Below, piece after piece: positions 30,504-64,000 of a DNA stretch of 64,000 nt (within the stretch, counting starts at the first letter, position 1; each line of letters begins with the position of its first letter). The position numbers and the translations under genes are program-made. The DNA comes from Ectocarpus siliculosus (taxonomy: Eukaryota > Sar > Phaeophyceae > Ectocarpales > Ectocarpaceae), in the NCBI GenBank assembly GCA_000310025.1, contig FN648327.1, positions 205,722-269,721 on the forward strand. Direction: 5' to 3'. The notes beneath the pieces are model-generated. The model had not been told where the DNA came from, made no database searches, and saw only the letters and a list, made by a program, of their open reading frames with translations.

Positions 30504-31255
30504 TGATCTTTGGAGATTCTGGATACAATGGAGACCGATGGAGATTGATTCTGGTAGTAGGTGTTTCTGGTTCGTTTGCGACAAATGGAAGTTCGAACTA
30601 GTCTCTCTGGTTTAATGGTTTATGGTTGGTTGTTGCAAGAGGATGGGAGGAGAAACGACTGTTGCACAATGACATTGATTTCTGGAGTTTTTGGGATGGG
30701 TTTCGTGTGATGCATAATATAAGCAAGTTCGGGTATAATCTTGACAATGCAGCGAGCAGGGGGGCTGTTGGATGTACTCACAGCATTGACAGATTATTGC
30801 AACCGAGGAATGTTCCTAGAAGATGGAGCGGGGGATTTTGGGGGTTCCGCAGTTGTAATAAATTGGGGGAATGGTGGTACCATCTTTGCCACATATTATT
30901 GTTTTCTGGGTATGTATGCGTGTCAGCAACGGTGTTGGCCACGTGCCCTTGATTTATTCATCTTCCTTTTTCCCGGCTATCACGCCCTGGGCTATCACGC
31001 CCGTGCCCATACTACCTATCCACCATCTATCACGCTGCCAGGCTTTCACGCCTCTAGGCTATCACGCCATCACAACAGCTATCACAGCACCAGCGTCAAC
31101 ACATCAGAGCTATCACGCTCCGGAACATCATAGATGCGGCGGGTTACCACACCCGTGGGCAGTTTACTGTATTTTATCGTTGCCGGCAAACTCGCCGCGC
31201 GGTTCTTTTATTTTTGCCGTCTACAACTGCGCCGGGCGCACCAAGCCACCCAACA
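30504..31255 (+). repeat. Left terminal repeat of the gag-only element
   Basis: Nearly identical to 35725-36478. It ends ...CACCCAACA. It contains a short CTATCACGCC minisatellite (about 30976-31120) and a GGGGGGCTGT motif that recurs in the right LTR region. Homology stops abruptly at 30504. Confidence 0.9.
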
Positions 31256-35724: not shown

Positions 35725-36478
35725 TGATCTTTTGGGAGATTCTGGATACAATGGAGACCGATGGAGATTGATTCTGGTAGTAGGTGTTTCTGGTTCGTTT
35801 GCGACAAATGGAAGTTCGAACTAGTCTCTCTGGTTTAATGGTTTATGGTTGGTTGTTGCAAGAGGATGGGAGGAGAAACGACTGTTGCACAATGACATTG
35901 ATTTCTGGAGTTTTTGGGATGGGTTTCGTGTGATGCATAATATAAGCAAGTTCGGGTATAATCTTGACAATGCAGCGAGCAGGGGGGCTGTTGGATGTAC
36001 TCACAGCATTGACAGATTATTGCAACCGAGGAATGTTCCTAGAAGATGGAGCGGGGGATTTTGGGGGTTCCGCAGTTGTAATAAATTGGGGGAATGGTGG
36101 TACCATCTTTGCCACATATTATTGTTTTCTGGGTATGTATGCGTGTCAGCAACGGTGTTGGCCACGTGCCCTTGATTTATTCATCTTCCTTTTTCCCGGC
36201 TATCACGCCCTGGGCTATCACGCCCGTGCCCATACTACCTATCCACCATCTATCACGCTGCCAGGCTTTCACGCCTCTAGGCTATCACGCCATCACAACA
36301 GCTATCACAGCACCAGCGTCAACACATCAGAGCTATCACGCTCCGGAACATCATAGATGCGGCGGGTTACCACACCCGTGGGCAGTTTACTGTATTTTAT
36401 CGTTGCCGGCAAACTCGCCGCGCGGTTCTTTTATTTTTGCCGTCTACAACTGCGCCGGGCGCACCAAGCCACCCAACA
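35725..36478 (+). repeat. Right terminal repeat of the gag-only element
   Basis: Copy of 30504-31255. The sequence before it (33848-35724) is non-coding and may be the rest of a long 3' LTR; it contains CTGGTTTAATGGTTT sub-repeats near 35655, 35697 and 35829. Confidence 0.9.
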
Positions 36479-43077: not shown

Positions 43078-43779
43078 TCAAAGTGACGTTGGGGTGCGTT
43101 CCGCGTCGTCCATCCCAACCTCTATGGCCGAAGGGTCTGCCGCTCCCATTTCCTCGCCACCTTTGGGGTTGTTCTCGAGGAGGAAAGGAAACGTTGCTTT
43201 TTTGTCACGAACGTCGCACGGGGCGCAGCTCACATTTCCGCAGTGTGGGCACGTCGCAATGTACCTGGGGTCCGGGTGGAACAATACTTTCCCCGATTGA
43301 CCACCGTTCTGTCCGGCGTCGGCCTCCGCCTTGGCCCGGAGCTTGTCGCACGAGCAAGTGGTGCGGTGCCCGAGCCCTTTCCGCTTAACCTCCATCTTCT
43401 TGTCGCAGGCCGGGCACTTGACCTTCGTCTTCCCTCGAACCATGAGGATAACGATACCGCAGCAACCGTTCGCGATCAAGAACCAGACCAAGCCCGCTGC
43501 CGCCACGGTGGCCGCAGCCCCGCCTAGGCCGAGCCATATAGCCTGCCGCTCGTACCACTCGTCTTCGTTCGGGGGTTGAGACGGGTCTTCTCCTTCCGAG
43601 GTGGGTGCCGGCGTTGGGGCAGATGGAGATGGGTCCGTGGTGATAGTGTCCCGAAACAAGGCGATCGTGCCATCCATTGAGCTGACCACAAGGGCCGTGC
43701 GGCCGTCGGGACTAACGGCAATGCTCCTGATATCGGTCAGGCCCCCGATGTGGCCCCCGTCTCCCTCAGCGATTGTGTC
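43078..43779 (-). CDS. Last exon of the receptor-like gene: blade 7, TM segment, Cys-rich tail
   Basis: Begins with propeller blade 7, then an acidic/Pro stalk, then a hydrophobic segment of about 33 residues (AIWLGLGGAAATVAAAGLVW, FLIANGCCGIVILMV), then a basic stop-transfer RGKTKVK. The cytoplasmic part has CPAC, CSC and CPHCGNVSCAPC, spaced like two zinc-ribbon half-sites, and ends in an acidic stretch. No kinase or GTPase domain is present, so signalling would need partners. The stop at 43080-43078 is close to the right LTR of the NADAR element. Confidence 0.85.
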   Translation of the reverse strand, partial: DTIAEGDGGHIGGLTDIRSIAVSPDGRTALVVSSMDGTIALFRDTITTDPSPSAPTPAPTSEGEDPSQPPNEDEWYERQAIWLGLGGAAATVAAAGLVWFLIANGCCGIVILMVRGKTKVKCPACDKKMEVKRKGLGHRTTCSCDKLRAKAEADAGQNGGQSGKVLFHPDPRYIATCPHCGNVSCAPCDVRDKKATFPFLLENNPKGGEEMGAADPSAIEVGMDDAERTPTSL

Positions 43780-46700
43780 CTGATTGTGTTTAAAACAAAG
43801 TGCCGTCGGGTTATTAGAGGGAATCCACGTGTCGTGAGAATTTTGACGTTTGGCGGTTTATGACGTGAAAATCGGTTAGTGGAATTTCGACATGGATGTA
43901 TTTAGTTGCGTCGCCTTTTTTTCCGTCGATTATTTGCGGTGTTTTTTTTTTCATCTTTCGTCAGAACACGAAAGCCCGCGAAAGGATTGACGCGTCAAGC
44001 CTCATGTCGGGACACATATACATTCCTCTACAAGCATCGCCGAAAAAGTAGCGTCGCCAGCAGCGAAGGCATCCACCTCCCCTGCTGAGTACTCCTGCGC
44101 GGTCCTGTACAGATTTTGGCGGCATCTCGCGACCTCGCGGCGGCCCGTTGTCCGGAGTCGCTGGTTCGAAAGTTGGCCAGCAGGGTTGGTTGGGGCAGAT
44201 TCCGGGACACCCCGCCCTCGAAGGGAGGACAGCAGTAGAGGCGTTAGGGAGGGCACACGGACTTGGCCGGCCACCGTAGGTGCATCTCGCTCACCCCGCG
44301 GTTGGGGTTGACGCTGGGTCGCACCACACCCCAGGGAGCGTCGTCGCTGCTACGAGCTCGTGGTACTCTTCGAGTTGAATCAACAGGTCAACTGAGCTCA
44401 ATAACGGCGAATAGTTCGTCATGTTCCAGACACAAACATGGCATGGCCATCGCGATAATAGAGAGGCACTCGTTGTACCTCTCATGGCGGATCTTTCCGC
44501 GTTCGAGGCGAGCCATGGCCTCCTCCGCTTGTACGCGTGTGTTTGCTGGTGGTTAGGAGCGTGGTAAGCTCATACATTGCGGCCGTTAGGAGGTTTATTT
44601 TTGGTTCCTGGTTCTTGCAACGGGTAAACATGCGGCGCGATCTAATTTCGCGGTAAATGCCAACCGTGACTTCTTTTCGCGTCAATGGTCGAAAGTCCGA
44701 ATTCCCCGTCAATCCATAGTGGATACCCTGTATTACCTACATACCAGTAGTGCTTTTCTCGTATGGCATGTGCCAGAGGGCTGAAAAGAGGATACACACC
44801 GACATATCCTGAATTCTTTTTTCACCTGCGGTCCGATCCTTCCTCCAACGACAGGTACTACTGCAAGTACACTTGCTCTTGCCTTTGGAATCAGAGAGAG
44901 GCACTTGAACACGATCGTGTGAGAGCAACAAGGTTATCCATCGAATCTGCCAAGCGAAGATGGCGGCATGGGGGTTCATTTCGAACAAGTCGAACTTACC
45001 TGCAGCTCGAGAACCGCGCATTCATCGTCGCCAACGTTCAGCACCCAGAACGTATCGTTCGCGTTACTCGCCACCAAGACGCGGGAGTTATCCGGATTCA
45101 CAGTCACCTGAGTGTGCGTGACAAGTGTGAGATGAGCTACAGGAATACGTCTGCCTTCCCTGGTAGTCGGAACGGTGTAATGAATACCGTGTTCGAGTCT
45201 CGCTTTCTCTATTCTATGTTAGCGACAAACAGGTTGGCGTAGATAGGGGGAGCGGTTTGAAGGGCAAACAAATGACAGTCCGAGTTGACTCAAGTGCAGT
45301 AGAACGCCCGAATTTGCCGCCTGTTTGAAAGGTCATGTTGCATACAGTGAGAATCGATGTACGCAGGCATTAGTTTGAGACCAAACATCTGTGACACCGA
45401 CGTGGAGAGGCGGCGAGGCGTAGATACCCCGGCTTGAACTCGTCCGACCAACACCCCCACGAAAATACAAATATACACCGACGCCCAGCCCGATAGTTAG
45501 AACACAGACACGCCTTGCCTAATCGGGGCACCTTCCCAATTCTGGCGTGTCCATGTTTTTGGACGTTAGCCGCACAGAAACTGCGCGACGGCAGAAGTAG
45601 CAAACGACCTGCTGCTGAGCTCGACCCTACTCACCAACGACGCCCCATCTAGGCCAAGCTGGGTCGGGGTCGTCGCTCCTTCCAACTCAACCTCCTGCAG
45701 TTCCCCGGTGCTTTCGTCCACGCAAAAGTGCGTCAAGGCTCCCGGGTTGGACGAAGCCACGTACACGTCCCTCCCAGAAGGGCTGACAGCAACGGAGGTG
45801 GCACCCCCTAGCTCTCTGTGAGGCATAGACGCGATCGTCGGAAAAAATGTATGTGGCCTGGCTTCCTTTCGTACCTTTTGCATGATGTACGGTTGGTTGC
45901 CAAGTGCTGTTGTGGTATGTGCTACTACGGGAGCCTCGTAGAGAAGAAACGCCAGAATATGTTGGCAGCAAGTGCGCAACGGCAACTGCTAGCGAGATGA
46001 ACCTCTTCAATCCGAAAGAGCCCCAAGCACGGCAACAGCAAAGCCTATCCTCTGCAACATATTAGAATACTGTTCGACTACTCAAGTATATTACGTTTGG
46101 TCTTTTGTAACGGGCCACAGATGTCCACGGTTTGTTCTCCCAAGAACGAACACTCACCCTTCACTGTCGGAAATCGTCTGCAGCAGCGCCAGATCCCCAG
46201 TTTGTGGGTCTCTGCTAAACAACATGAGCGCACCACCAGAAGCCACCGAGTCCGTCCCGTACAGGAACAGTCCATCGGGCGAGACCGCCATTCCCGTCGG
46301 AGAGACGAGAGACTCGGTCACGTTGGAAACGTACGTCAACCCACAAGTCTCAAGGTCTGCAGCAAACGTGATGATGCACCCGCACGCTGGCGACGAAACG
46401 TACACGTGGTCTCCGAGCAGAGGGCTGGCAACCACGTCCCAGGCTTCAGCCAGCGCCGCGCCGGACACCGTACCCGCGTAGGTCAGGTTTCCCGATCCCG
46501 CGCCGTCGATGCTCAGGCTCGTGAGCGAGTTGTTGCCCGCGGCCACCACGAAGAGGCACCGCCCGTCAGGGGAGGGTGTTAGGACAGTGGGCCCGTCGAG
46601 AGTCCCCGCCCCCGTCCCGCCGGTATTCATGTCAAAGTCGCCGACCATCGTCAAGCTGCCGTCGGAAGAGTCTACCTCGAATGCAACGATGCTGTCGCTC

Positions 46701-49700
46701 TCCTTCCCCGTCAAATACACGTGTGTGCCATCCGGGGTATATACAGCCTCCCACGCCCCGTCTGTGGCGTCCATGACCTCCACGAACAACACATCCGGGG
46801 CGATTGCCGTCGGCTGCGGGGAGGGCCCCGGAGTTGGGCTAGGTGCCGTCGGCTGCAGGGAGGGCCCCGGAGTTGGGCTAGGTATTCCTCCTTCTGCGTT
46901 AACCCGGTTGACGGTCAAGCATTTGAATAAGGACTATGACAAGAACGGGCAAATATATTTTTCGAAAGTCACACGCAATGTGCGAAAAAGCATCGTTCAA
47001 GAATGTGCTTCATGTTTATTACAGTGCCCTATGGTCAATTGCGCTCGATCAGAGCTCATCGGTTGACATGCCGGCAAGTCGTGGTATTGTGGGGACGTGC
47101 TCCGGAGCATGGGGCACGGGAATCAGGAGCAGCGGCAGCGGTGGCTCTGACAGCCGTGGCAGGCCGCCGAGGGGACAAATTGATAGACATGCTCGAATCG
47201 GACTCAGCAGCAACAGCTGCTCCCCATAAAGAAACATTACTCACGCGTTTGACGGAACAAAGTAACAACACACTTCTTGCTTGTCAAACCAGACAAACTC
47301 AGGTTCGCTGGTAAACCCCGCAGCGGGCACGTAAAAACCGCGGCAGGACCAAATAGGGGCAAAAACCCCACGCATTCCTAACCTCACTGCTGCAAGAAGC
47401 ACTTACATTGGAACAACGATATAGTAAGTCGACCGAAGACTACGAACGAACGGAAAGCAAAGATTGTCGGTCGGGTGCGGTGTCATGTAGAAGTGGCACC
47501 GTTGAGATGTCACGAGGAACGGGGGAAGAAAGTCTGAACCAGCCACATGCATGATATCCCGAAACGCCCAACGCCATTCAAAACACTTTTCTTGGTCCCC
47601 AAACAGACGGAGCGATCGGTTCGCCGTATCGCATCCCAGCGGGAAAGTCATGACCAATCGTCAAAGACGCACGGTGCGCGATGTACAGCAATACCGCCGG
47701 AAATTACCAAACATCCAAACAACACCAAGGCAAACGAATGCAGAGAGATGTGTATCATTGGAAATTCTAGTCCGGTCGTGCAAACATCAGTTTCAGTTTC
47801 AGTTTCTTCGGCATCACTTACCGCACATTTCGACGCCCGGATCGAGCTGAAGCTCAACCGTGGCTACCGCGCTATTCCTGGTAGTTGGAGGTGGAGAGGG
47901 AACGTCAGGGTTGCTCGACTGTATCAAACTCTTCCCTACCTCGATGGACACCTAAACCAACGAGAGGATGGATGCCCCTGGAAGCACTGCCTCGCAACCT
48001 TTCCATTGAAGGGTGCGAGCATGATGAAACAGTGTACCAATGGGAAGAAAACGCGTGTCCTCTGCCATGGAAAACTCTGCCTTCGTCCCCTGGCTCATGA
48101 TATCGTCGGAGCAGCGAAAAAGGTAGCGAATGAGGGCTTCTGAACACGAGAGGCTTCTAGTGGCCGGAACACGGCCTCACTCAGCGCAATGCGATCGATG
48201 CCTTGGGATGTGTAAGCGTTCGCTGCGGTTAGATCTCATAGAGCAGTACTCGAACGACGGTGATATCGACAACGGAACCGTGCAACGCCCCGCAAGCGTT
48301 CCAACCAACACGGAGATGAAGTCCGCGCTAGATAAGGCGAACGCATAATAAGTTGACGAAGCAGTGAGTCGGCACTCACATGGGAGGGAAGCACGTCAAG
48401 TTTTCGTTTCCGGTCGCGACCCTGGTAAGAAGCAGTAGGAGTGTGGAAATAGGGTATGGTTCACGCACGGCTGTTCTCGGCGATGGCAGGTTTGGCTGCG
48501 ACGAAGTGCCATGCCAACGGCAATGCCCTAACCGGTGTGATGTCTGTATTGGGTCTTGCGGGTCTATTTTTGGTGTTACAGTTGAGCGAGATGCTGCTCA
48601 TGACTCATGCAACGCAGGAGCCCAAATATCTGACTTCACGCGCGGCGTGTATCAACTTCTTTCCAAGATACGTAGACTACGCGTACATAGCAAAAGAAAC
48701 TACGTGCATGCGCGACATGGTAAGGGTCTCACATCTCTTCGATGGGGAGGCCGTCGAAAATGTTGTTCTCCAGGAAGAGTAGCCCGTTGTCATCAATATA
48801 CCTATATAGATCACCATGACCCGTAACGACAGCAACAATTGTGACTACAGGTTTGTGGTGGTGTTGCTTTGTTCATCTCGGTTGAGTGATTACATAATGC
48901 GTTTTTCCCGTCCCGCGGGTTACGCGTGCATCATCGAAGACTCATTCACTCACACGGAAGCGCGGGGATCAGCGAAAGTGAGCGACTCTCTTGTCTTGCG
49001 ACGCGATTCAATGTCACAACACACGACAGACATGGACGGCATGAGTAGCGATGATTTTATTGCGACCAAAACCGTTGCGAATCGTGCGCGAGTAAGGACA
49101 GCACCACACCAGTCATTGGCGGAGGGGGTTGGTGCGAACGGCACCAAGGCATGAGAAAGTCGTCACCGCAGGCCAAGGCAATAATGTACGTGCAACACCA
49201 CAGGTTGGAGAGGGTTAAGAAGGTCTAGGCGTGGGACGATACACTGGCTGTGTTGTAGAAAGAGGGGTGTTGTCGAGCAGACCGAAAGGGCGCCTTTCGA
49301 TGGCGTAGTTGTCGAGGTACTTTAATGGGTCCCCAACAGCCACGATGGAGTTGGTGCGCGGCATAGAGGGGTATGTAGGGGAGGTCCATCGCAAGCAGAA
49401 GATTTGGCTGGGAGAACTCCTTGCGAGGTGAACGATCTGCCGGATTGTGTGATTCCCAAGGTGCCGCATCACCCGGTGACATGTCGACCGTTGTCTGTCG
49501 TTCCGGCCTGTGAAAGCATTTACTCACATTACTGCAAGGTTGTCGAGGCCCTCGAGGAGTTCACCCGGGATGATCTCGAGGCTGTTGTTCGAAAGGACCC
49601 TGGTTGCGACGTCAAATAAAGGTTGGTCAAAAGGGCATGGCAGTGATGGGTGGAGCATTTGCATGCACAAGTCCAACTCCAAGATGGTACAACAAAGCAT

Positions 49701-52700
49701 TGGAACGTGCACAGTTTGTCCCGACGAGTATGCAGCATCCGCAGCTCTATTGTAGCGCCACGTCAAGAACACCAATCTGTGGGCGATATCATGTCATTAA
49801 CGATGTCTGACACGGTTCGTCAGCCTGAGCGACGAGGAGCTGGTAGAAACGGAGCAGCCAACCCACAGTAGCTAGTAGTTGTTGGACCCGGTGGCATATT
49901 GCCAAACTGACTGACTACTCACAAGTGTGTGATGCTTTCTCGTCCAAATGTGTCCAAACAAGGCGAGATATCGCCGAGATCAGCATCTGTCAGTTCGCAA
50001 CCACTGAAATCCCTGTAACCGAGCAGTAGCAGCAGATGCGTGAGCGGATCAGTCGTGCAAGCCGCGTAGACAAGACAGTTTCTGAAAACGGCCGCCAACA
50101 CACGCGCCATATCGCGGTACGATGTACGTTCTTGTGATAGCCACCGTTGGCAACAATTTAGCGTTGCCGAACATGCTATGGTTTGAAGTGATTTGCTGCG
50201 TACAATGTCTCAGGGCTACGGACTCAGGTGTTGGGCTTTGTCTTTGGGTAATCGTTGTCCACGATGTAGATGACATGCTGCATTCATTGTGCCGAGTAAA
50301 GAAGCAGGTACCATCGCAATCCTTCCCAACAAAGTGGATACCGACCCGAACTCACAGTTCGCTTGAACCCGAAACCGAGGTGCATCGCCCGTCAATCAAA
50401 CAGTCGTTGGTCGAATCTTCACGGAGGTACGCCGCCGCAAAAAACACAGGCACGAACAGTAGATAAGGGTCGTGGGCATTTAAACAGATCTTGGCAGGGT
50501 CGAAAATCCACCTCGAACGAAAAAAGACAGACTACGCAACCCTAGCTTTGTCGGCACTGGGAGACCCACGACTGCCTCAATGGTATTTCCGGTTGTTGCC
50601 ACCAAAAGCGGCGGCGATCACCATAACGTAGCAAGCCATAAAGTGCGGGTATGTAGTCATTGCACTTTGGCTCTCCCGTGGCACCTGCCGGCTGGCCAGT
50701 TGTAACTGTGGCAGCAAGTTTTGTAGGACTCGTTCTACAAGGATTGACGACGGGGGTTGAGCATCCAGGTCATCTCTTCAGCGGTTAGCTGGGGGCGTAA
50801 TAGGCCAACAACGATACTGCAAGCCAACTTACGATCGCCATACGGCGCTGCCGACGACAATCAGAAACACCCCCACCTGCTGCTATGCATGATCTCCCGA
50901 CCCGTCCAACTCCCCACGGTATACCTACGTAGTACGTGGCACGGTGGGATCTATTCCGGTTTCGTTTTAGGCTATACCCCAAGTTTCGGACTGGGGTCGG
51001 ATTGCCGCCCCATGTTCGCCGCTTTCGTGAACGAAATGGGAAATAGTACTTGCAATACTTGAAGGCGTCTGCCCACACAAACAGCAACGAAACATACCAC
51101 TCCGAAGAATACTGACGAAGTCGAGATCGAAGGGCCCCTGAATCATGCAGATCCAGATGAATTGCTCTCCAGTTTCCAAATCGGCTATTTGGTCGCTGAA
51201 ACGGCAACGGCCGGGAAGGGGCGGGGTTCGGCGGGAAAGGGGAAAACGAGAAACAGAAAGAGGAGCTACAAGAGCTCTTTTTCTCAGGCTTCCGGCACGA
51301 CACGACACCACCGGACGACGAGCAACCACACCCATTTTACTCCCATGGCCTTTTGGCGAAGACGTTGAGCGTGCGTCGGTGTTCTATGTAGTATGCCACC
51401 TACGCGCTGTCGACAGGCGACCGAATGGAGGAACACAAGAGGCACAATTTCGCTGAGGAGGAAAGAAAAATAAACAACGCGGCAAGAATTCTGCCGCGGA
51501 TCTTCGAAAAAAAGTGAAGCGGCTATGAATTCCAACTACATAGTGGGCGTCGCCGGCAGGCTCACACAAATACGCTGACGAAGGAATCCCAGCCTCCTGA
51601 GTTTGTAACTTCGACTACTCCGAAGAGATCGGTGTACGAACCGTCCGCGCACGGGTCGGTTTCATTTGCGGGGTCCCTGACGACTCGAAACGATGCTCCA
51701 GGGAAATCTTGACCAAGGGCAACCCTGAACTCAAAGTTGCCTCCAGAGACTTGTTGCGGAGGAGTGACAGGGAGGACGGTGGGGTGCAGAATGGGGCGGG
51801 TTACATACGTCTGTTGTACATGTGTGCACGGACGGCCATGAACTTTGTATGTCGTTATGGTGGTGGGAACGACGGCATTGAGACGTAAAACATCCATTTC
51901 TGTCTACCAATGAACCTTGCGGCATGCGCAAGCTGAACAGACCAAGCCGGAATATTGCGGTGGGGACAATGACGAGGGACCTCTTGCCGTCGTTGCGGCG
52001 AAGAACTCTCCGCATGTGTACAAACGTAGCAAGCAACAGGATCGCTGGTCCAGGTCGACGAGTACGTTTTCTGTTCGACTGAAGCACCCTTCGTGTTTTC
52101 AATCTCACCTATGTACGTAACGTCGACCGTGTAACGTAGCCATTCTCCATCGGCGATGAATCAGACATTGACTACTTCTTCTCCGTCTACGAGAACCGTG
52201 TTGATGTCAACGCTTTCGTTGGCGCGAAATACCTGCCATTTTGTCGGCCATAGAAAAGGTGGTACGGGTGACGGATCAGACTCTGGGAGAAGTCGTTTTC
52301 ATCAGACCTCGACCCTGCAACGTTTCGTGCCCCGTCTTCCCTGTGGCGTTAGACTCCGTCAAGTGCCGAACAGCAGGCGTCGGTGCATACAGTACCGTAA
52401 AACGGGCCAAGCTCGTCTCCGCACACGACACACTATGTGCTTGTCACGGGTCGTGTGAAACAGCTGCCGATCGCTATTCGTTGTACATACATACCCTACA
52501 GCCACCCCTTTCCACGCCGTGTACAGTGAGTGCCACAACAAGCGTTGTGTCGGGTACTGCGACGTCGTGGGTGCCATTGTGGCTCGAACACCTACATTTC
52601 GATGAACCACTCTCCTCTTTCCAGAATCGAATCGTGTCTGTGATCCTATCTTTTTACTTCTATGTGTCGCCGCTCTTCACCGGTTCGCCGTCAAGGAAAT

Positions 52701-53475
52701 TGCCTTCGTTGGCAGCTGTTTCGTCATTGTAAGCAACGCCCTGGCCGCCGTAGTCGTAGTTCTCCAACTCGATTTTTCCGGGGAGGACGGCCGCAGTCCC
52801 TTCATAGGGGCCAGCTGTTTTATTTGCAAACGTTGGTAGGCAAATGCTCAATTTTTCTCCCTAGAATACGAGCTTGATGCATCATATGGTCTACTACATG
52901 GCAGCGTGGAGCATGGGCAGCCTGAGGATAGACAGAGCCGTTTTGGTCTTGACGGTGAGGCCGGGAAAGTAAAGCAGAGGCTTCGACAGCACCCAAGGCG
53001 GCGAATCGGAAGACGTAGAAGTGGGAACGTTGGCGTCGCTACTGTACGTGCTTTCACTTGAACAAAGGGAAAACAAATAGGCGAACAGAACTTGTGCACG
53101 GGTGCACCTCGCAGCGGGCGCGCCACGAGTAAGGGTCAAAGACGCGCGCTTTCCGACACTTTCTGCGGTAAATAAAGTACCAAAAAAGCAACTGAACAAC
53201 ACATAGTTAAACGAACGTGTAGAGATATGGTAAATTAAGCTGTCATCTGGTCGAGTGCAGTGTCGCTTACAACAGCACAGGGCCACCTTAGAAACGCCTT
53301 ACGGCACGCCTACGAGCATCATTATCGCCCCCGGCTACTGTACGCATGTGTGCAAGATCTGCCGAAATGCAACTCACACACCTTCTTGTGCAGAAATGCC
53401 TCCCAGGAACAGCAAGACTACCCCCAGCAACCCCGCCGCCGCAGCGCTGCCGCCGCCGAAATATAAAACGCCCAT
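43078..53475 (-). CDS. Receptor-like protein: signal peptide, CBM6, LRRs, seven-bladed propeller, TM, Cys-rich tail
   Basis: Minus-strand exons: 53475-53382, 52814-52681, 52232-52109, 51749-51566, 51195-51098, (unresolved), 50012-49923, 49599-49528, (damaged LRR near 49320-49250), 48801-48733, about 47928-47822, 46893-46158, 45857-45635, 45107-45000, 43779-43078. Phases agree within each block. The start is MGVLYFGGGSAAAAGLLGVV with a hydrophobic core and SAQ cleavage site, joined in phase to CBM6. The layout predicts a cell-surface protein that binds wall or foreign carbohydrate outside and signals through a short cytoplasmic tail. An in-frame TGA (52163-52161) and a broken LRR argue for a pseudogene, a rare allele or sequence errors. 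Joining CBM6 to the LRR block crosses at least one exon I could not find (phase 1 to phase 2), so two adjacent genes remain possible. Confidence 0.65.
43780..44999 (-). other. Large intron of the receptor-like gene
   Basis: 1.2 kb between the blade-6 exon and the last exon, in phase 0 at both ends. It contains an open minus-strand frame near 44300-44485 (MTNYSPLLSSVDLLIQLEEY) that looks protein-like but has no matching splice sites. GGTTCGAAAG at about 44162 resembles a Pol III B box without an A box. Confidence 0.45.
45000..46893 (-). CDS. Beta-propeller exons of the receptor-like gene
   Basis: 46893-46158, 45857-45635 and 45107-45000, completed by the start of the exon at 43779. A tandem Pro/Thr linker (PSPTPGPSLQPTA, PSPTPGPSPQPTA) precedes seven blades: TPDGTHVYLTG, SPDGRCLFVVA, SPLLGDHVYVSS, SPDGLFLYGTD, SPSGRDVYVAS, NPDNSRVLVAS and SPDGRTALVVS. 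The S-P-D-G-x-x-x-Y-V pattern is that of the YVTN/lactonase-like propeller superfamily. No enzyme activity can be inferred; a binding role is more likely in this setting. Confidence 0.88.
48733..50012 (-). CDS. LRR exons of the receptor-like gene
   Basis: 50012-49923 (90 nt) is an N-terminal cap-like repeat: DFSGCELTDADLGDISPCLD then ESITHL. 49599-49528 is exactly 72 nt and one repeat (VLSNNSLEIIPGELLEGLDN). 48801-48733 is 69 nt (DDNGLLFLENNIFDGLP). All enter and leave in phase 2. A further repeat near 49320-49250 (DNYAIERRPFGLLDNTP) lines up with the others, but its acceptor is one base out of phase and it lacks a GT donor. One-LRR-per-exon with constant phase is known for brown-algal LRR receptor candidates and permits exon shuffling. 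Confidence 0.75.
51098..52814 (-). CDS. CBM6 carbohydrate-binding module exons of the receptor-like gene
   Basis: Four exons (52814-52681, 52232-52109, 51749-51566, 51195-51098) encode one family-6 module: GPYEGTAAVLPGKIELENYD then GGQGVAYND, then a VDI strand and FIADGEWLRYTVDV, then SGGNFEFRVAL...GASFRVV and TNSGGWDSFVSVFV, then ICMIQGPFDLDFVSIL. This is the canonical CBM6 order, including the aromatic/Asp ligand-site positions near the end. The Gly normally found before the W/F-I-A-D-G-E-W segment is replaced by TGA at 52163-52161. CBM6 modules bind beta-glucans, xylan or agarose-type chains. Confidence 0.85.
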
Positions 53476-55057
53476 TACCGGTATTATGCTCGTACCGGGT
53501 TTGAAATCAGAAAGCTGCCGAGTTGGTCGGGGGCGGGGAAGGTCAGTTCCGGACAAGCACATTGAGTAGTGGTACTGACATTCGTTGCCTTCGTATTTGC
53601 TACCCTCCTTTTTCGCAGCGACAAGACGATCACCGAACCAAAAGGGCCCCTCCTCTGTCTGTTGGACATCTGCGATCGATCCGAGAAATTTGACAGATTT
53701 CTGCGATGTCTCTTCTTTTTTCTCTTCCGTGAATCCGAGAAATCCAGAGAAAAATCGCTCCGTTCAGCGCGGCCCAAAAGTCGCCAAAACCCAAAAAACA
53801 AAATGAGATAGGCTGAAGTAAACTCAGGATATCTCCGAGGGCTATAGGTGAGGCATTTGTCTACGTGGAATCCACGTAGGGTAGGCACAGGGTTGATACC
53901 GCACGCGGTCCAAGACCAGTGTCACACGTGTGAGGTATCACCCACAATATCGTCACTCGTTTTTGCTGTCACACACGCTCCTACGTCGGAGCTTTCCCGT
54001 TTTGGGGAGGGCGCAAACAAAACGGATCACTTCTCTGCCCCCAAAGGGGGTGGCCTATCTTTTGCGAGGGACGAGGTAGCGGTTGCGGTAGCGTCTCTGG
54101 GGTNNNNNNNNNNNNNNNNNNNNNNNNNNNNNNNNNNNNNNNNNNNNNNNNNNNNNNNNNNNNNNNNNNNNNNNNNNNNNNNNNNNNNNNNNNNNNNNNN
54201 NNNGGGGATGGGGGACTGAGGGGGGGAAGGGGTGTGAAGCGGGCCTTCGACATTTGTGGCTTGTCAGCGGTGCCATCGAAACTATTTCTATGTGGAGGGG
54301 AGGACGTGGGAGCGAACATAACGTGCTTTTCACCTGTCGTTGTGACAAAAAAGTGAAAAAACAGAAAATAGTCAAACAAACACAGCAATTGAGTGGTCGA
54401 TGGGGCGGGGGTGGGTGGGAATGGCAGGGACACATCAAGGTACAAAAGGGGTTAGGGCGACGGGTGTCGGAAAGAGGGAAGATAAAAATTGAAGATACGG
54501 AAGGTGCTGACTGCTTTGTCGACGAAACGTCGTAACTGTCGCAGCAAAAAATTACTCGTGTAGGTGAGGGGAGGGGGGGCGGGGCGGACCTAACGAACGT
54601 TAACCATTCGAATGCATTCATAATTTATCGTAGCATATTTCTCGCGTTGCGCATGCCAAGATATTGAGGTGGAAACACGAAACACGATGGTGTGAGGGGT
54701 GTGTGTGTGATAAAAGGGACAGGACTGCTCGGCACCTATGCAGGACACTATGGGGGGGGGGGTTGTTCTCTTGTGGCGGATATATTTTATGTCGTTCGTG
54801 TGGGGGGGGGAGTAGGGCTACTCGGACGTCGTGTACGCGTTGGTACTTGTTTGTTTGGGGGTAAAATAAAACGTAAAGATCGCGTGGTAACAACGGACCG
54901 GGCATATGGCTGCGGGGACTTCTCTCATTGAGTGAGGGGGTGGTGAGGATAGGAGGGGTGCATTGTAGCCGACCCCGTTCCGCCGTAACAAGCCTCGTAG
55001 CACAAATAAAAGTTGGCCTTCGAGTCCATCCCGTGGGCGGGGCAGGCGCGGGGCAGC
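53476..55057. other. Region upstream of the receptor-like gene, with assembly gap
   Basis: Should contain the promoter of the minus-strand receptor-like gene. I see no named site. The short plus and minus open frames here have no recognisable domain. The N run is at 54104-54203, and G-rich sequence follows it. Confidence 0.4.
54104..54203. other. Assembly gap (100 N)
   Basis: Run of exactly 100 N, the usual placeholder for a gap of unknown size. Confidence 1.
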
Positions 55058-55555
55058 AGGTGTTGGGTAGCGGGTGCTTAGCGTCAGAGGTTGCGGAGAA
55101 AAAGTTGGCTCAGGACCTTGTCATTAACGGGTGAACAGCAGGGCAAGCAAGCCCTGCATACTAGAAGGGGTTCGCCCTTCCAGTAACACATACCAAAACA
55201 TGATACACCAAACCCCCTAGATCTCCGTAGATCCGTATCTAGTGCTGAGTACACCTTACAGTCCCCCTACTCGGTACTAGATACGATATTTTCATCTTTT
55301 CCCCTTATCGCGCAACTTGGTCGTAACAACCTCAAATCTCAAATCTAGATCGTCCATCGTTCCAGTTCGAAGCAAATCTCCCAAGATAACGTCTTCCTCC
55401 GAAATAATTGATTTCCCAATAGAACTCCCTCGTCCGACCTTCGTTGAATGTTGAAAATCAAATAAATTTCCTACCCATATTACCAGTTAATAGTCTATCC
55501 CCTCAAGACGGTACTCTCTCCGAAACTCCAACGTTTTCTATCCAAAAAATATGAA

Positions 55556-55920
55556 GTTTGTTGTCGAAGACCGAATGAACTGTAGTTTATTGTGCACGGT
55601 AGAATTCGGAACATCTCCCAGATCTACGCATGTATTTGGGTTCTTGTTGTGCCGCCCTGGAGGCGTGTTGGTTCGGTTGTCTTGGTTCAGTTTTCTGGGG
55701 TCCTACAAAGAGAACGGTCTCACGGAGTTCTCATTCCGCTGTCTCGCTGCTCCTGCAGCAAGAGTTTGATAGACGCGTGTCTACTGGACCACAGGGCCAC
55801 GTGTTGAGGAATGCACAGTGTGTAACTCGCAGCCCGCGTCGGAGGGTCACGCGGCAAGGAGGGCAGCAGCTAGCCACATCGAAGTTTGGACCTAGCTAGC
55901 AGAAATTCGTAGCTTTTCTC
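55556..55920 (+). repeat. Repeat fragment with an inverted copy at 59935-60305
   Basis: About 365 bp that matches 59935-60305 in reverse orientation at roughly 75-80% (for example CCAGATCTRCGYATGTATT, TGTGCCGCCCTGGAGGCGTG, CATCGAAGTTYGG). Both ends decay gradually, so the family boundaries are unknown. Confidence 0.75.
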
Positions 55921-56044
55921 CCGCCCACCCACCCCTTTTCTTTCGAAGGTGTGGGATAGGAGAGGTTACGAGTGAGGACTTCTTAGGAGAGGCCTCTTAT
56001 CATTTCTGTGATTCGGAGTTGGTGCAACCGTTTCCCACGTAGAA

Positions 56045-56292
56045 GTATGGCGCAGCATTGGGGTGTTTTCTGAATGGTGGTGCGTACCATTGGGAGGCTC
56101 AATCGTCCGAGACTGCTACTGTGCAACAGTTTCGTCCCGTCTTGTAGTATTCGGAGGGAGATTTTGTGTTTTAGTAGCAGAGACACGTTAGGATACCGCG
56201 GAGGCTTTGCGCCGTGCGGAACGTGTGGTACGGGGGAAGTCTCCCTCCGTAGGTCACAGAAATATCGATCAAGGCAATTCGAAAGAAAACAA
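56045..56292 (+). repeat. Fragment of the NADAR element (3' interior)
   Basis: Matches 42020-42273, with shared GTGTTTTCTGAATGG, CAATCGTCCGAGACTGCTAC and AGACACGTTAGGATACCGCG. Both copies keep an inverted pair GGAGGGAGA ... TCTCCCTCC. Confidence 0.85.
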
Positions 56293-56299
56293 TAAACGT

Positions 56300-56965
56300 C
56301 TCAACCGAACATAAAACTTACGACGAAAAACCACATCATCATCACTTCAGCTTCACCTCTTGGTTCTCCTCCGAAAACCCATGACATACAAAGTTTAACC
56401 GCAAACACCATCCAGATCGCTTCTTATTCTCAGTACTTCTCAAGGTGCCAAAACCCAAGAGTTATCCCAAGCAAATATCTCCATGAAGCCCACCTTTGGA
56501 CAAATCCTCAAACGAAACCAGGTTTCAACATGTTAGCCAATAGACAAAAAGCATTCGGAAAGCACTTAGGCCCCAACCGTTGCTTATCAATACATGTCAA
56601 TCCTTCCTCCAGAAAACGTATAAAAGGCAAAACCAAACATCCGGAAACATCAGGACAAACCTTCAATAGTAGTTGCGGCGTTAGCATATCAATGAAAGTA
56701 CACCCAACAGCCCCCCCGCTGTGACTTCCCAGGAAATGCAAACACGTACATCGGCAAAATACCAACTCCGCAGGTAAAACGCGAAAATAGCAAATGCTGA
56801 GAACCAAGATAGAATACGAATTTCAACACAAAAAGACAAAATATAACCAGCATCCAATCACAATCCCCCAACGTCAAAGGTGCACTGCAAAATGTAAAAC
56901 ATGACAACTTCTCGTGCTGCTACAATGATCATGGCACATCACTCCCCCCCCATTATTCTTGATAA
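56300..56965 (-). repeat. Reverse-oriented LTR-like sequence related to the gag-only element
   Basis: On the minus strand, AATAATGGGGGGGG is followed by GTGATGTGCCATGATCA, close to the polypurine/LTR junction at 33832-33862, and then by a GGGGGGCTGTTGGGTGTACT motif that also occurs at 30760. Probably a solo or truncated LTR of a related family. Confidence 0.5.
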
Positions 56966-57044
56966 CAGCACAGCAAGAACGCTGCTCGAACATACAATAC
57001 GCTGCACAAAAGACAAATACCCGAAAAAACACCAAATCACGTAT

Positions 57045-57215
57045 GGTGCCCCCCCCCCGCCGAAAACACACTAAAATCGAACGGCGTCGCTTTGACCGCC
57101 AGAAACAACAAAACAACGAAAACAGCAGCAAGTGTAGCGCCCCCTCCCGCCGAAACCATTACAAGAACAGCGTCGCTTTGACAGCCGAAAACGACAATAT
57201 AGTCAAAGAACAACA
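57045..57215. repeat. Tandem duplication, about 95-bp unit
   Basis: CCGCCGAAAMCAYWCTAMAA, GGCGTCGCTTTGAC and the following Lys/Asn-codon-rich stretch occur twice in a row. Confidence 0.7.
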
Positions 57216-58045
57216 GACGGCGCTCAACAAGGCAAAGGTGGTTGGGTATGGTGGGCAATGGGGGGCGGGGGGGGTCAACGTCTACACCACACGCGTCGAA
57301 ATGTCGATGCACACGTCGCCGAAGGCGATGCAATCACCGGTCGATACCCCCCCCCCCCCGACCTGCACACAGTATTCCACAAGCCAATCGATAGAACAAT
57401 ATACTGTATATATATAGCCTCCTTCATCCCATTCAACACAGACACAGCGAAACCCAAAACGACAAGAACAGAAACGAATACCTACCACACTGTCTACCAG
57501 CGTGCCCCATAGCAAAAAAAATTGACAGTGCATATGCATACGTCAACCCCTTGCAATATGTCATCAGATGGTTGGTCGTGGTCGAATAGCTGATCGGAAA
57601 CAAGCGCACGTTGCCAATGTTCAGTTCTCTAGAAAACTCTGCATCATCACCGCTAATTTTCCAACTTCCATGTACAGCGAACAACAGTGATTGGCGACAA
57701 AGTTTTGCAATGTCTCAGTCTACCATCACGACCATACGCTTATCTGCAACAAAAGATGATCAGTCCTCTGCAACAAAATACACTGAAAACGAGGAATTCA
57801 ACAGCAAAAACGCTACCCATCTAACAGACCGAATGCCAACCAACATCAGAAACTGCCTACAGAAACCGTACGAATTCAAAATGAAAACCTCGAACGCGCC
57901 CACCCCAGCAAGCCCGTCAAACTCCTTGCGTTGCACCTCGGTTCAGACTTCGGCATTTCCGCCAATACGCCCAAGTGCCTCTCTCCCTTCGCCATCAGAT
58001 CCTCCTCTGCTGCTCCGGCCGCAAACGCATGCGCCCCGGCCGTCC

Positions 58046-58480
58046 TCACCCCAACGTCTTTCCACGGTCGAAAGGAGTGTGTACCCCTAGCACGGGACCC
58101 CGTCTGCTTGCCCTCAGCAGGCGCCGTTTGCCCGGGTCGAACGCCCTAAACCAGGCCACGTCCAGCCCTTCGTCGCTACTGATGCTGCTGCTGCTGCTGC
58201 TGCTACTGCTGGTGCTGCTCTTCCTGTCACCGACCTCCTCGGCGTATCTTCCACCATCATTGCCGCTACTACTGCCGTTGCGGCTGCCGTCGGCGCTCTC
58301 TGCAAGCACACTGCCGGTGTCGCTCACCCCCACAAACACGGTGCCGGGATCGAAAGGGTGCGTGGACACCCCCCTCTCGCCACAGCCGCTGTCGTCCCAG
58401 TTGTCACCAACCTCACCGGCACACCGATCGTCATCATCGCTGCCTTCGTCGATGTCGTCACCACTGGTGCCCCATTTCAG
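58046..58480 (-). pseudogene. Ser/Asp/Gly-rich open frame in the minus-strand LTR element
   Basis: Minus frame reads an Asp-rich stretch, then STHPFDPGTVFVGVSDTGS, a run of about nine Ser, and DEGLDVAWFRAFDPGKRRLL to a stop at 58046. It is in the sense orientation of the element and near its 5' LTR, so gag or a gag tail is possible. No known motif. Confidence 0.3.
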
Positions 58481-58766
58481 CTGTCCTCGCAGTCATTGTC
58501 GCCGACGAAAACCACTTCCATCACGTCGGCTGCGACGACAACTTTTTCCGCCGTTGCCCCCGCGGCTCCACCATCGGTCGTCGGTGGTGCTGCCGTCGCC
58601 GCCGCCGGTGCCTCGGCCCGCGGTGCCGTCGCCGCAGCCGCAGCCGCAGCCGCTCTAGCTGTCGTCGCTGGTGGTACCGTCGCCGCCGCCGCGCTCGCTG
58701 TCGTCGCCACCGGTGTTGACGGCCACCGCGACGGGAAGTAAGTAGACAAAACACGAGCACCCGTTA

Positions 58767-58898
58767 TGAGTCAACCTTTTCTCTGCAACCTCTGACGCTA
58801 AGCACCCGCTACCCAACACGCGAGCGCGTAGCGCTACGCGTTCGCGTGTTGGGTAGCGGGTGCTTAGCGTCAGAGGTTGCGGAGAAAAGGTTGACTCA
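58767..58898. repeat. 132-bp near-perfect palindrome at the LTR edge
   Basis: Centre GTAGCGCTAC at 58828-58837; two 66-base arms differ at about two positions. The right arm is the LTR end plus adjacent LTR sequence; the left arm is its inverted copy running into the element. Confidence 0.9.
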
Positions 58899-59046
58899 GG
58901 ACCTTGTCATCAACGGGTGAACAGCAGGGCAAGCAAGCCCTGGATGCTAGAAGGGGTTCGCCCTTCCAGTAACACACACAAACACATGATACACGAAGCC
59001 CCCCAGATCTCCGTAGATCCGTATCTAGTGCTGAGTACATCTAACA

Positions 59047-60508
59047 TTGTTGGCCTGCTTTGTCCAACAACTAAAAAATGTTACCGACGTCGGGGGAGTC
59101 GCGCAAGAGTAGACCAGTACACTGCCGCCAACTGAAAAATGGTTCCGCCTGAAAGTAACAGACCAAGCATGTAAGCTAGAGTGATTGACAAACTCACCCA
59201 CGCGAGTCCCCCAACGCACCTCTCACGAAGCAACGACTTCACCAGACGTAGCATTAGTCCCCTATTACCACATCTCTCGGAATCTTGGGAGAGTCAAAAG
59301 CAGGCTGCAAAAAGCTAACTACGAAAAAGCGAACAGCAGGTACGCCAGAACTCATGGCGAACTCATCCGCGTCGTACCACGAAGACAAAAAAGAAGAAGG
59401 CACATACACACGCTCACACAACTCTTAACGTCCCCCAAGATGGTTCGTGAAACCGACCCTATCCAAACCCGGCGCGTAACCAGCCTCCCCCGCCATCCTC
59501 ACGAGCCCAACCAACCAAAAACAGCCCCCTCCCCCCCTGATTGGTCTCCATTCCGGAGCCGGCGCGGAACCACGCCATCTACCTGCAGCACGGTCTGTGG
59601 CACATCGCTGAAGGCGGAGGGGGCGCCCATTACCCTAGTAAGAACTTGTGCTCGGGTTGGTGCAGCAACGAGCATCGCTCAAAATAGGAGTTTCTGAAGT
59701 GAGGGCCGCTTCTGTGGCACGCGTGAAGCTTGTGTTCGCGGCAAGAAAAAAAGCGGAGGGGTTCGGAAGAGCGGGGGGGTGCTACTGACCGAAAATGTTG
59801 TTGCGTAGAGGGCGGAGGGGGGTGCATTAGCGTCTATTTGCCATCATGTGTTTCTTTCGTTTATCGCACGCTTGGCTGGGCACTCCAATCGACCGTACTC
59901 CATCATCATCCTGCCCTAGCCCACAGCCCCTTGAGAAAAGCTACGAATGTTTTCCAGCTATGATCCGAACTTCGATGAAGCTAGCTGCTGCCCTAAATGA
60001 CGCTCCGACGCGGGCTGCGTGTTATGCACTCTGTGCATTGCTCAACGTGTGGCCCTTGACTCCATCCAGTGGACACGCGTCTTTCACACTTACTCTGGCT
60101 CCAGGAGCAGCGAGGCAGCAGAATGAGACCTCCTTGAGACCTTTCCCTTTTGTGGGATCCCAGAAAACTGAACCAAGACATCCGGACCAACACGCCTCCA
60201 GGGCGGCACAACAAAAACCCCAATACATACGCAGATCTGGGAGATTTTCCGAATTCTTCCGTATACAAAAACTGCAATTTGTTTTAGTCGATCTTCGACA
60301 ACAAACTTTCATTTTATCCCACACTTCGTGTGTTGCAACACACGCAGCTCAGTTAGAAGGAGGCCGCCCCGGGTGTCAGGGCTCCTTCATACGACACATA
60401 TTTTACAGAGTGGTCGACCCCATAGGGTGTCCCCAGGGTGGGCCTACTGTTGTAGTGGTCACCTATCATGAAAGTCAACGTCGGTCGTGGCCGGTGTAGA
60501 CTACTCTG
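59047..60508. other. Repeat-bearing intergenic stretch
   Basis: Between two elements. It holds the inverted repeat fragment 59935-60305 (partner of 55556-55920). The plus frame 59185-59697 has no domain I recognise. Confidence 0.4.
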
Positions 60509-60510
60509 TA

Positions 60511-63441
60511 CAGTGGGACCCCCGGTTCAGCGACCCCCTGTTTAGCGACATGCCCTGTTTAGCGACCCCAAAAAATCGAGACACCGCTGCACCCCGGTTT
60601 ACCGACCATGTGGTGGCTAAACCGGTCGACCCCACAATAGCGACTTATTGAGCTGTTTTCAGCGAGTAACAGCGAACATCAGTTCAATTTTTGCGGAAAC
60701 CCCGCGTTGCTCCACACGCAAGACACAGCACCGCTGGACACGTACACACACGCAACATTCCGTGCGCCGATGGAGAGTTGTGGAAACAGCCGGATGTGGC
60801 ACTGCGGGCCCCAGGGGCATGATTGCCATGGTGGCTGCGGTAGACGACCGCATTGCATGTTGGGGGGGGTGCAGGTTCTCGATGGCATCGAGATGCACGG
60901 CACCTGCCACGCGTGTGCATCCAAGAACATGCAGACTTCCCCACCCGTCTTGAATCCACTCAAACGCAAAGAGAGAAAAAGCTAGATGGCGCGGGCGAAG
61001 TTGGCAGTACTGGGGGAGGAGAATTTATGGCGCCGCCGCCCAACTCGAAGATTTCGTCGCTTTTTGGATCGCTAGAAGAAGAGTGCGGGGAGTCGTGTGG
61101 TTTAAGCGAGGCAGCGTATCATCTTCGCAAGGCAAAGATGCTGTTCATCGAAGCACACGCCGCGAAACCAGCACGACAGACAGACATCACAGAGTTTATT
61201 GTTGTTTTCTTTCGAATTGCTTCATTATTTTTCTTCGGTTTCTAGGCCACACGTTGGGGAGAGAGACACACGGAACACACACCATCTCTCTAGCCACGTT
61301 GACTACGAGGCGCGGCGTTGACTCCTACGAATCCGTCTCTCTCCCCGCAAATAATACCAGCCGGGGGACTACGACTGCAAACGTAGGAGTCCCGAAACTG
61401 ACCAAAGCCCCAAATGGTACACACCATTCTACAACACCCCACTAGAAACCGAATAATCCCGCGCTTATTCCCCCACCTTCGAACGAAAAGGGATGGGAGG
61501 GCGGGATTTTTCGCTCTAATACGTTTGCATTGGGCGGCCACTGCTGTCCTTGCTTTCTACACGCGCTCTGTAGCTTCCGTTCCTCACTCAACCTGCTACA
61601 CCGCTGCGTGCTTTCTTGGCAACGGAATGACAGGATGGGGGGTTCTAGTTCTCTTCCATTGGGACCCCAGAATACCGGAGATTAAACGAAATTACAATTC
61701 GAAACTGTCACCTCAATAAACCGCAGTTTATGTTGTCTGTACGACGAATAAACTTTCCTTTTAGTTAACCCCTTTGGGTCTGCACTTTTTTTTTTCCGGC
61801 CAAAAAATGAAAGAGGCGGGAGGCAGTGCGGAGAGAGAGAGAGAAGTGCAGCAATAGAGACTGCTGTACTTGTGCACATGGAACAGCTATCTCCACCTAT
61901 AGACCATGAGGGCAGCCCGCGACAGGGTGGTAGCGACAGGCAGGGTCATAGAAAGGTTGATGGGTAGTCGCGGTGCGGCTGGTAGGGCAGATTAGCCTTT
62001 AGGCCTTCAAATGATGCGTCGTCAAGCTGCCAAAACTACTATGATAAAATCATCCATGAAAATCATCTATGAGAGGGCTTGTAGACCTATAGCCAAATCT
62101 GCACTTCTGTACTTCTCTGTCCCCCCCCTATTGTGAGCCCTGCCGGGTCACTAGAGCTCCTGTGTTTTTCCCACAAGCACACACGCACAACAGCACACAC
62201 CTCTCTTCTCATGAACGGCTCCCTGTTAGGTTCGGGCGAGGATATGTGTGGAGTTACGATAGTACATACTGTAGTGCTGTATTGTTGGACTTGTCTTACT
62301 TGCTACTGCTGTTATAATGTAGCTGCTGATACGATTGACTGCTGGATCTTAGGACTATACGATTATCAAATTTGGAATTGCAGCATTCCAGGATATCCTG
62401 GCTTTGCTGGGCTTGGTTTGCCCCTTTTGATTTGGGGCATCTATGTGGAGCTATATCTGTGTCGCAGGATACTTATTTCGACAGATGCCTGTGGCGTTCG
62501 CGTTAAGCGCAATGTGCATTTCCGCATTTTGGTATGCATACCCTGCCAGGGACGGACCTTGATTTTCCCGCTGGCACTGACGTCTTTTTCCATTGGTCAC
62601 CGGTGACCTCGGTCGATGCTAATAAAAAGACACACCTATCTATGCATGCTTATGAACTTGCCAACACCTCGCGTGAAGGGATACAGGGAAGCAACTCCAT
62701 AGCATGCCAATACACCAGCATATGCGAATGATCTATCACTGATCTATCAGAACGCCTGAAGACCCAAAAGGGTTAAGCATGATCGGTACACACTACAGCA
62801 GTATGTAGCAGAATGAAGTCACTAGCACCACGAGGTTCTTTGTCGCTTTGGAGTTCACGAACTTTCTCCGTGCCGTGGGGGGGGGGTTATTTTTGTTTTT
62901 TCGGAACGGTGCCATGATTTTGTTTGTGTTGGTCGACATGTGGAGACAGACACACATGTAGGGACAACTTGTTCTGCACGCGGGAAAACGAAACGACATA
63001 CAAGGACACCCTTTGTGAACACTTGTTGTTGAGACATACTGGTATTTAATTTAAAAGTCGGAGGGTACAACAAGCTTGCTGGTTGATTGGAATGCACACC
63101 GTATTGGAACTACTGTACTTCGCGGTTATCCACCCCAAGGTGGGTGCTTCTTCTTTCCTCCACCTTCGCATGACTGCTGCAATACAACGCATATACATGA
63201 CCCGGTCAAGAATTAAGGAATAATAACAACACACACGGAAAGACTACCCATTCGTACTTCTGCAACACGGCCACGAAATGGCGTTTTTTCCCGGTTTAGC
63301 GACCGCTGGTCGCTAATGAGGCTCCCGGTTTTTAGCGACTAGCTCCCGGTTAAGCGTCCTAAACCGGATCTAGCGACATGCCCTGAATAGCGACCACATT
63401 TCGTCGTGACACTAGGGGTCGCTAAACCGGGGCCCCCACGG
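60511..63441. mobile_element. TA-flanked element with 27-bp terminal inverted repeats (Tc1/mariner-pogo-like)
   Basis: Left end CAGTGGGACCCCCGGTTCAG and right end (reverse complement) CCGTGGGGGCCCCGGTTTAG match at 23 of 27 terminal bases. Both ends are flanked by TA (60509-60510 and 63442-63443), the target duplication of the Tc1/mariner superfamily. Subterminal GCGACATGCCCTG and many TAGCGAC/GGTCGCTA words occur at both ends. The 2.9-kb interior has no transposase I can recognise, so it is probably non-autonomous. The interior includes the dispersed 60-bp repeat at 62571. Confidence 0.7.
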
Positions 63442-63443
63442 TA

Positions 63444-64000
63444 TATTGCTGCAGCTCTGCCATCATCACCAATCAACAATATTCTGCCCTCGCAAGCATC
63501 AATCTGACTACTTTCCGACGGCACTCCGTGGCGGCAAAGTGTACTTGCTTACTTCGTTGTTCTTTCAGCTCGTTTCTCACCACGTCCTATTGTGCTCGCC
63601 GTCGCGCGACTGCTGCTGTGTGTGAACTCGGTGCCCTACCCGAGAACTTTTTCCATTTTTGGACAGATTTTTTTTCTTCCTCATGATACAACGAATCCAT
63701 CTCTATCAAAGTAATTTTGTAACCGTCGAATAAAAATCATGGAATCAAAGAAAGAACCTTGGTCACCCCGCCAGTGCATACGCGAGACGGGACTCGAAAG
63801 CGGTGGACGGTGGACTATCTACTCCGTATAAGAGATGGAACTTACGCGGTGCAAACAATTCCGTGAACAGTGAACAAGTGACTTATTGTGAGGGCCGCTC
63901 GAGCGCTCGAGTGCTCGAGTACGAAATGAAAGAGCTCAAATGAAATGCACGTGGTGAAAGGAGAACCAATGTTCTGCGCGGAGAACCGAACCAAAACTGT
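63444..64000. other. Right edge, no supported feature
   Basis: No gene seen. A perfect 14-bp palindrome CTCGAGCGCTCGAG at 63898-63911 is followed by another CTCGAG. Confidence 0.4.

Follow-up and report, generated by a model that had tools for sequence, protein, structure and literature searches.

Does the minus strand between positions 53475 and 43078 of a 64,000-nucleotide stretch of the Ectocarpus siliculosus genome (contig FN648327.1; hereafter, the window) encode one surface protein that joins a CBM6 module, leucine-rich repeats (LRR) and a propeller, or several shorter genes set side by side? The answer developed below depends on the exon structure of the locus, on a single paralog elsewhere in the genome and on an in-frame stop codon within the CBM6 part.

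Gene model and domain assignments

Exon ends were set by eye, with homologs as the guide and without a gene finder or RNA. The predicted model comprises 15 exons in one continuous frame of 917 codons including the final stop, joined by 14 introns of which all 14 are GT-AG. Its predicted order is a signal peptide, a CBM6-like module, a short LRR module, a Pro/Thr linker, a seven-bladed propeller, one TM segment and a Cys-rich tail. The initial annotation had proposed in-phase exon blocks for this region, which the single frame through 14 GT-AG introns supports apart from a TGA at codon 100; the blocks it had named were recovered, but it had overlooked this stop and also an N-cap exon (50416-50356) that the frame needs, and in a model lacking this exon the frame is lost between exons 5 and 6. 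The signal peptide, phase-2 LRR exons, Pro/Thr linker, single TM segment and Cys-rich tail that it described are all present in the model, the seven propeller blades could be counted by eye in the sequence, and the domain order and the absence of a kinase hold in the joined model.

Exon 1 (53382-53475, minus strand like all exons of the model), located by hydropathy and an ATG-exon scan, begins with the ATG at 53475, encodes the signal peptide MGVLYFGGGSAAAAGLLGVVLLFLGGISAQE and ends in phase 1. Four exons follow for the CBM6 module. Its first part (AGPYEGTAAVLPGKIELENYDYGGQGVAYNDETAANEGNFLDGEP, exon 2, 52681-52814) was placed by a PDB match and a C30 homolog, and is 60-63% identical to the CBM6 exon at C30:1322026-1322145; the second part (exon 3, 52109-52232), placed by CBM6 homologs, carries the in-frame stop; the third (exon 4, 51566-51749) ends in phase 2, as do its counterparts on C20 and C30; and the last strands, closing with EQFIWICMIQGPFDLDFVSILRS, lie on exon 5 (51098-51195), which ends in phase 1. 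A frameshifted CBM6 after 51566 was considered and rejected, since the homologous exons (two on C20, one on C30) finish in phase 2 with a GTGAG or GTAAG donor, which makes the break after exon 4 an ordinary intron.

The LRR module is small, with an N-cap, two canonical repeats and a C-cap. The N-cap exon 6 (DSTNDCLIDGRCTSVSGSSEL, 50356-50416), found through LRR homologs, is entered in phase 1 and left in phase 2; exon 7 (49923-50012) encodes the cap/first strand (DFSGCELTDADLGDISPCLDTFGRESITHL); exons 8 (49528-49599) and 9 (48733-48801) are phase 2-2 repeats of 72 and 69 bp; exon 10 (48380-48421) starts the C-cap (VATGNENLTCFPPM, with counterparts NPDLQCVP and NPDLQCLP), which ends in phase 1 with exon 11 (NSAVATVELQLDPGVEMC, 47822-47877). 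Exon 12 (46158-46893) holds the Pro/Thr linker, with a 39-bp tandem repeat at 46805-46883, and blades 1-4 of the propeller, followed by blade 5 and part of blade 6 on exon 13 (45635-45815) and the remainder of blade 6 on exon 14 (45000-45107). Exon 15 (43078-43779) contains blade 7, a second linker, the TM segment, the cytosolic Cys-rich tail and the final stop codon at 43080-43078. The two highest hydropathy peaks of the model are the signal peptide and the one TM segment (43438-43530, approximately residues 767-797), whose best 19-residue window has a mean hydropathy of 2.28. The predicted cytosolic tail (43081-43437) carries the motifs CPAC..CSC and CPHC..CAPC, with eight Cys.

Profile searches of the joined translation matched the three domain types of the initial annotation with different strength. 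Lactonase (PF10282) was matched at 3.4e-18 (66.4 bits versus a cut-off of 21.7), and exon 12 alone already matches a propeller family at 3e-14 when single pieces are scanned; LRR_8 (PF13855) exceeded its cut-off of 27 on the LRR segment alone (28.1 bits) and fell below it on the whole protein (22.6); CBM_6 (PF03422), scored with an X placed at the stop codon, stayed under its cut-off of 28.9 on both the segment (24.3 bits) and the whole protein (21.7). The signal-peptide, CBM6 and LRR pieces, the first 6 of 10 scanned singly, matched nothing in Pfam at E up to 1, and no kinase domain was among the Pfam families reported for the joined model. Sequence searches of the PDB matched the CBM6 part (query residues 14-84) to the solved CBM6 chains 2y8k/5la2 at E=3.6e-6, and the propeller resembles the phosphogluconolactonase-type propellers 4qrj (3.5e-10) and 3scy (6.2e-9), all of which we take to be bacterial enzymes or enzyme modules.

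Some features of the surrounding window may be recorded here. N runs (assembly gaps or masked stretches) occupy 11115-11362 and 54104-54203, the second of them a short way 5' of the gene. A neighbouring gene may begin at 57159-57071 on the minus strand, where an ATG exon of signal-peptide character (MVSAGGGATLAAVFVVLLFLAVKATPFDF) is followed by a GTGTGT donor in phase 1; the minus-strand frames of 54300-63999 matched nothing in Pfam at E up to 0.001. Identical 747-nt direct repeats at 30509-31255 and 35732-36478, 5,223 bp apart, resemble the LTR pair of a young retrotransposon.

A paralog and related loci in the genome

Genome searches covered the 189-Mb assembly of 492 contigs. Two protein queries, exon 12 and the last exon, each matched a single further locus, on C11 (these counts being lower bounds). 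The paralog there is 63-69% identical over the propeller exons and 53% to 58% over the last exon, its three core introns have the same positions and phases, and the eight tail Cys are identical between the two paralogs. Comparison with the C11 paralog gave dN/dS values of 0.23/0.67 for exon 12, 0.19/0.74 for exon 13, 0.15/0.91 for exon 14 and 0.28/0.63 for exon 15, so that dN spans 0.15-0.28 versus a dS of 0.63-0.91 over the four core exons, as an average across both paralogs. The propeller-TM-tail core, well supported by the Lactonase match and by this paralog, is the conserved part of the gene and is under purifying selection.

The C11 ectodomain comprises Cys-rich pieces, which were picked out on their codon scores, and tandem copies of a Pro/Thr linker exon. 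This linker exon (C11:1854956-1857285) recurs with a period of ~373 bp and seven phase-1 donors, and the propeller acceptor is likewise phase 1, as if the stalk lengthened by whole-exon duplication. Over 23 kb of C11, no CBM6 or LRR probe matched below E 0.14. Among the frames of C11:1853001-1862000 only the propeller passed its Pfam cut-off, weaker names all lying below theirs; those of C11:1844001-1853000 matched nothing in Pfam at E up to 0.1, and the sole genomic match of the N-terminal piece was to itself. The two family members thereby differ in their N-terminal ectodomain, as though it had been exchanged via exon shuffling at borders of phase 1.

CBM6 genes with exon splits common to this gene were seen at C20:493900-497130, C30:1313750-1322145 and C23:2974878-2975390, some apparently with tandem CBM6 modules. 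The Pfam CBM_6 profile had 0 matches in the whole genome, which is put down to short exons and is uninformative on the number of CBM6 modules. Among six other CBM6 starts, the C23 one has a phase-0 acceptor only, the first C30 copy could be phase 0 or 1 and four are ambiguous; as far as these six can tell, CBM6 as a general phase-1 module in this genome is not supported. The N-cap, repeat and C-cap plan of LRR exons 6-11 recurs, with 22 matches of which 5 are the query's own exons, and the N-cap acceptor, judged by eye, is phase 1 in 7/7 homologous exons. No CBM6-LRR pairing was found in 18 kb around each of the three CBM6 loci, and a CBM6 probe did no better than E 0.029 in the 3-5 kb scanned at each of nine LRR loci. 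As separate observations, a 575-residue open frame at C16:2359328-2360683 has repeated LRR modules with Cys-rich and Pro/Thr linkers and is intronless there, and the EsV-1-7 Cys family (PF19114), presumably typical of brown algae, has at least 150 matches (150 of 150 scored, from 880 candidates) and none in 14 control genomes, in keeping with a brown-algal source.

The three module-border introns of the model are all phase 1, the internal introns having phases 0,1,2 in the CBM6 part, 2,2,2,2,2 in the LRR part and 2,0,0 in the core. Given 4 phase-1 introns in 14, three such borders have a chance probability of 0.011, calculated after the fact, and the phase of the CBM6/LRR border is partly circular, the border having been sought as a phase 1-to-2 exon. 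Modules flanked by phase-1 introns, as in class 1-1 proteins, are therefore found at 3/3 borders conditional on the gene model. We would advance only tentatively, and regard as rather doubtful, the wider proposal that brown algae independently evolved animal-style surface proteins by class 1-1 shuffling, with a core and interchangeable, optionally spliced cassettes. If true, the interchangeable cassettes would be CBM6, LRR and Cys-rich modules on a propeller-TM-Cys-tail signalling core.

The stop at codon 100 and rival readings of the locus

The in-frame TGA at codon 100 (52163-52161, minus strand) lies within CBM6 exon 3, at a column occupied by G, G, G, A and G in five other CBM6 exons (two on C30, one on C23, two on C20). 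Translation of the assembled sequence from its first ATG would end there, and the full CBM6+LRR+propeller protein may not be made in the sequenced strain. The CBM6 cassette of exons 2-5 is 540 nt long with phase 1 in and out, and its omission leaves 737 codons with no internal stop; being symmetric and in frame, it would allow a CBM6-less isoform to remain complete. The stop would also be lost without a frameshift by dropping exons 2-3 (258 nt), although this would disrupt the CBM6, or by dropping blocks 2-11, 3-13 or 3-14. On the best reading of the locus, CBM6 is probably optional or broken here; under the wider proposal above, if true, splicing it in or out would yield two receptor forms from one locus, only one of them bearing a glycan-binding module.

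The claim of a single gene is based on the phases and splice sites, on exon borders shared with homologs and on the failure to find a convincing alternative start. It competes with an unlikely reading in which there are two genes, a CBM6 gene running from 53475 to ~50967 through exon 5 and bearing the nonsense codon, and an LRR-propeller-TM gene starting in 51097-50416. The C20 CBM6 gene does stop directly after its counterpart of exon 5, the sole lesion falls in the CBM6 part, and none of the other loci inspected has CBM6 and LRR side by side. In addition, 51097-50013 contains four signal-peptide-like ATGs (50841, 50660, 50639 and 50479), exceeding the background of 0.92 per kb on the minus strand of the window; the LRR-propeller intron has one, at 47758. 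All four, however, are without a listed phase-1 donor (50660 and 50639 would need GTGGCA), and the donor that closes exon 5, GTATGT, is in the correct phase. In a scan of the CBM6-LRR and LRR-propeller introns, no ATG exon combined a signal-peptide-like sequence with a usable phase-1 donor, whereas exon 1 does. As controls, the same scan returned 1 such exon over a neighbouring 7.5 kb and, over the ~4.9 kb that precede each of three LRR genes, 0 for C15, 1 for C55 and 2 for C14; the empty result upstream of the C15 LRR gene means that the scan can miss true starts, which tempers this argument against a second gene.

Somewhat less improbable is that the codon-100 stop has made the entire gene a recent pseudogene or null allele in this strain, already dead or on the way to it. 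The TGA does occupy a conserved CBM6 column of exon 3, and a protein search gave no second copy of this exon in the assembly. Yet it is the lone internal stop in 917 codons, every intron keeps its GT-AG ends, the core is constrained (albeit when averaged across the two paralogs), the stop would be lost if exons 2-3 or 2-5 were skipped in frame, and an assembly error is possible at codon 100. A different objection concerns the function of the protein: the propeller could be a membrane-anchored lactone or sugar-lactone hydrolase, making the protein a wall-associated enzyme and not a receptor. We consider this the least probable of the three, and quite improbable in itself. Its top propeller matches are to the Lactonase/SGL families and to phosphogluconolactonases, but the lactonase-type propeller fold recurs widely as a scaffold, and in our judgement the conserved Cys-rich tail and modular ectodomain better suit a receptor or tether.

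Proposed function and comparison with known systems

The best explanation, for which we see about an even chance, is one gene encoding a type I single-pass modular surface protein with a conserved core and an apparently swapped ectodomain, proposed to act in ligand contact and partner recruitment. Judged from its modules, the product is probably an exon-shuffled, kinase-less wall-contact receptor or tether with a swappable ectodomain. The ectodomain modules would make contact with wall polysaccharide, with protein ligands or with both, and the Cys-rich tail, perhaps zinc-binding, would recruit a partner, a role proposed for the tail because no kinase is present. We infer the single transcript and the topology, as well as zinc binding, ligand binding and signalling. 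The pattern-recognition receptor suggested by the initial annotation may be kept as a candidate, and a wall-tethering or adhesion role would fit equally well. The layout of a core plus a swappable ectodomain makes the propeller-TM-tail core a simple search target in other brown algae.

Propeller ectodomains are also known from the alpha-integrin-like proteins of brown algae. The brown-algal LRR receptor kinases are likewise membrane proteins with LRR ectodomains; compared with these two groups (PMC8307928), the protein proposed here is kinase-less, has a propeller that is lactonase-type by Pfam and adds CBM6 to LRR. The single modules of 2y8k/5la2, 4qrj and 3scy are similar in sequence to those described above; unlike here, these proteins are not known to be joined to LRR and TM. 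A CBM6-LRR-propeller protein was not found in the literature among the matches listed, which were titles and abstract starts, mostly of non-subscription sources.

The closest precedent for the exon structure is given by the brown-algal LRR-ROCO genes, in which LRR repeats lie on shuffling 72-bp phase-2 exons (PMC11378527). The likeness extends to the brown-algal host and, in part, to phase-2 LRR repeat exons, of which the present gene has one of 72 bp and one of 69 bp. LRR-ROCO proteins are ROC-COR GTPases, whereas here the LRR would be extracellular, with phase-1 outer borders and two repeats only, and the gene adds a signal peptide, a TM segment and a propeller (PMC11378527). Symmetric phase-1 borders in a multidomain extracellular protein would be shared with the metazoan class 1-1 proteins (PMC8001218), from which the present case differs in being non-animal and in its other modules. 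The individual module kinds and the shuffling of phase-2 LRR exons in brown-algal genes (PMC11378527) were already known; what would be new here, on the sequence analysed, is how the modules are combined, that the paralog carries a different ectodomain and that phase-1 borders occur outside animals. One review states that class 1-1 shuffled proteins are practically without evidence in non-animal eukaryotes, and the gene described here would be a testable counter-example to the view that symmetric-module shuffling is practically confined to animals (PMC8001218).
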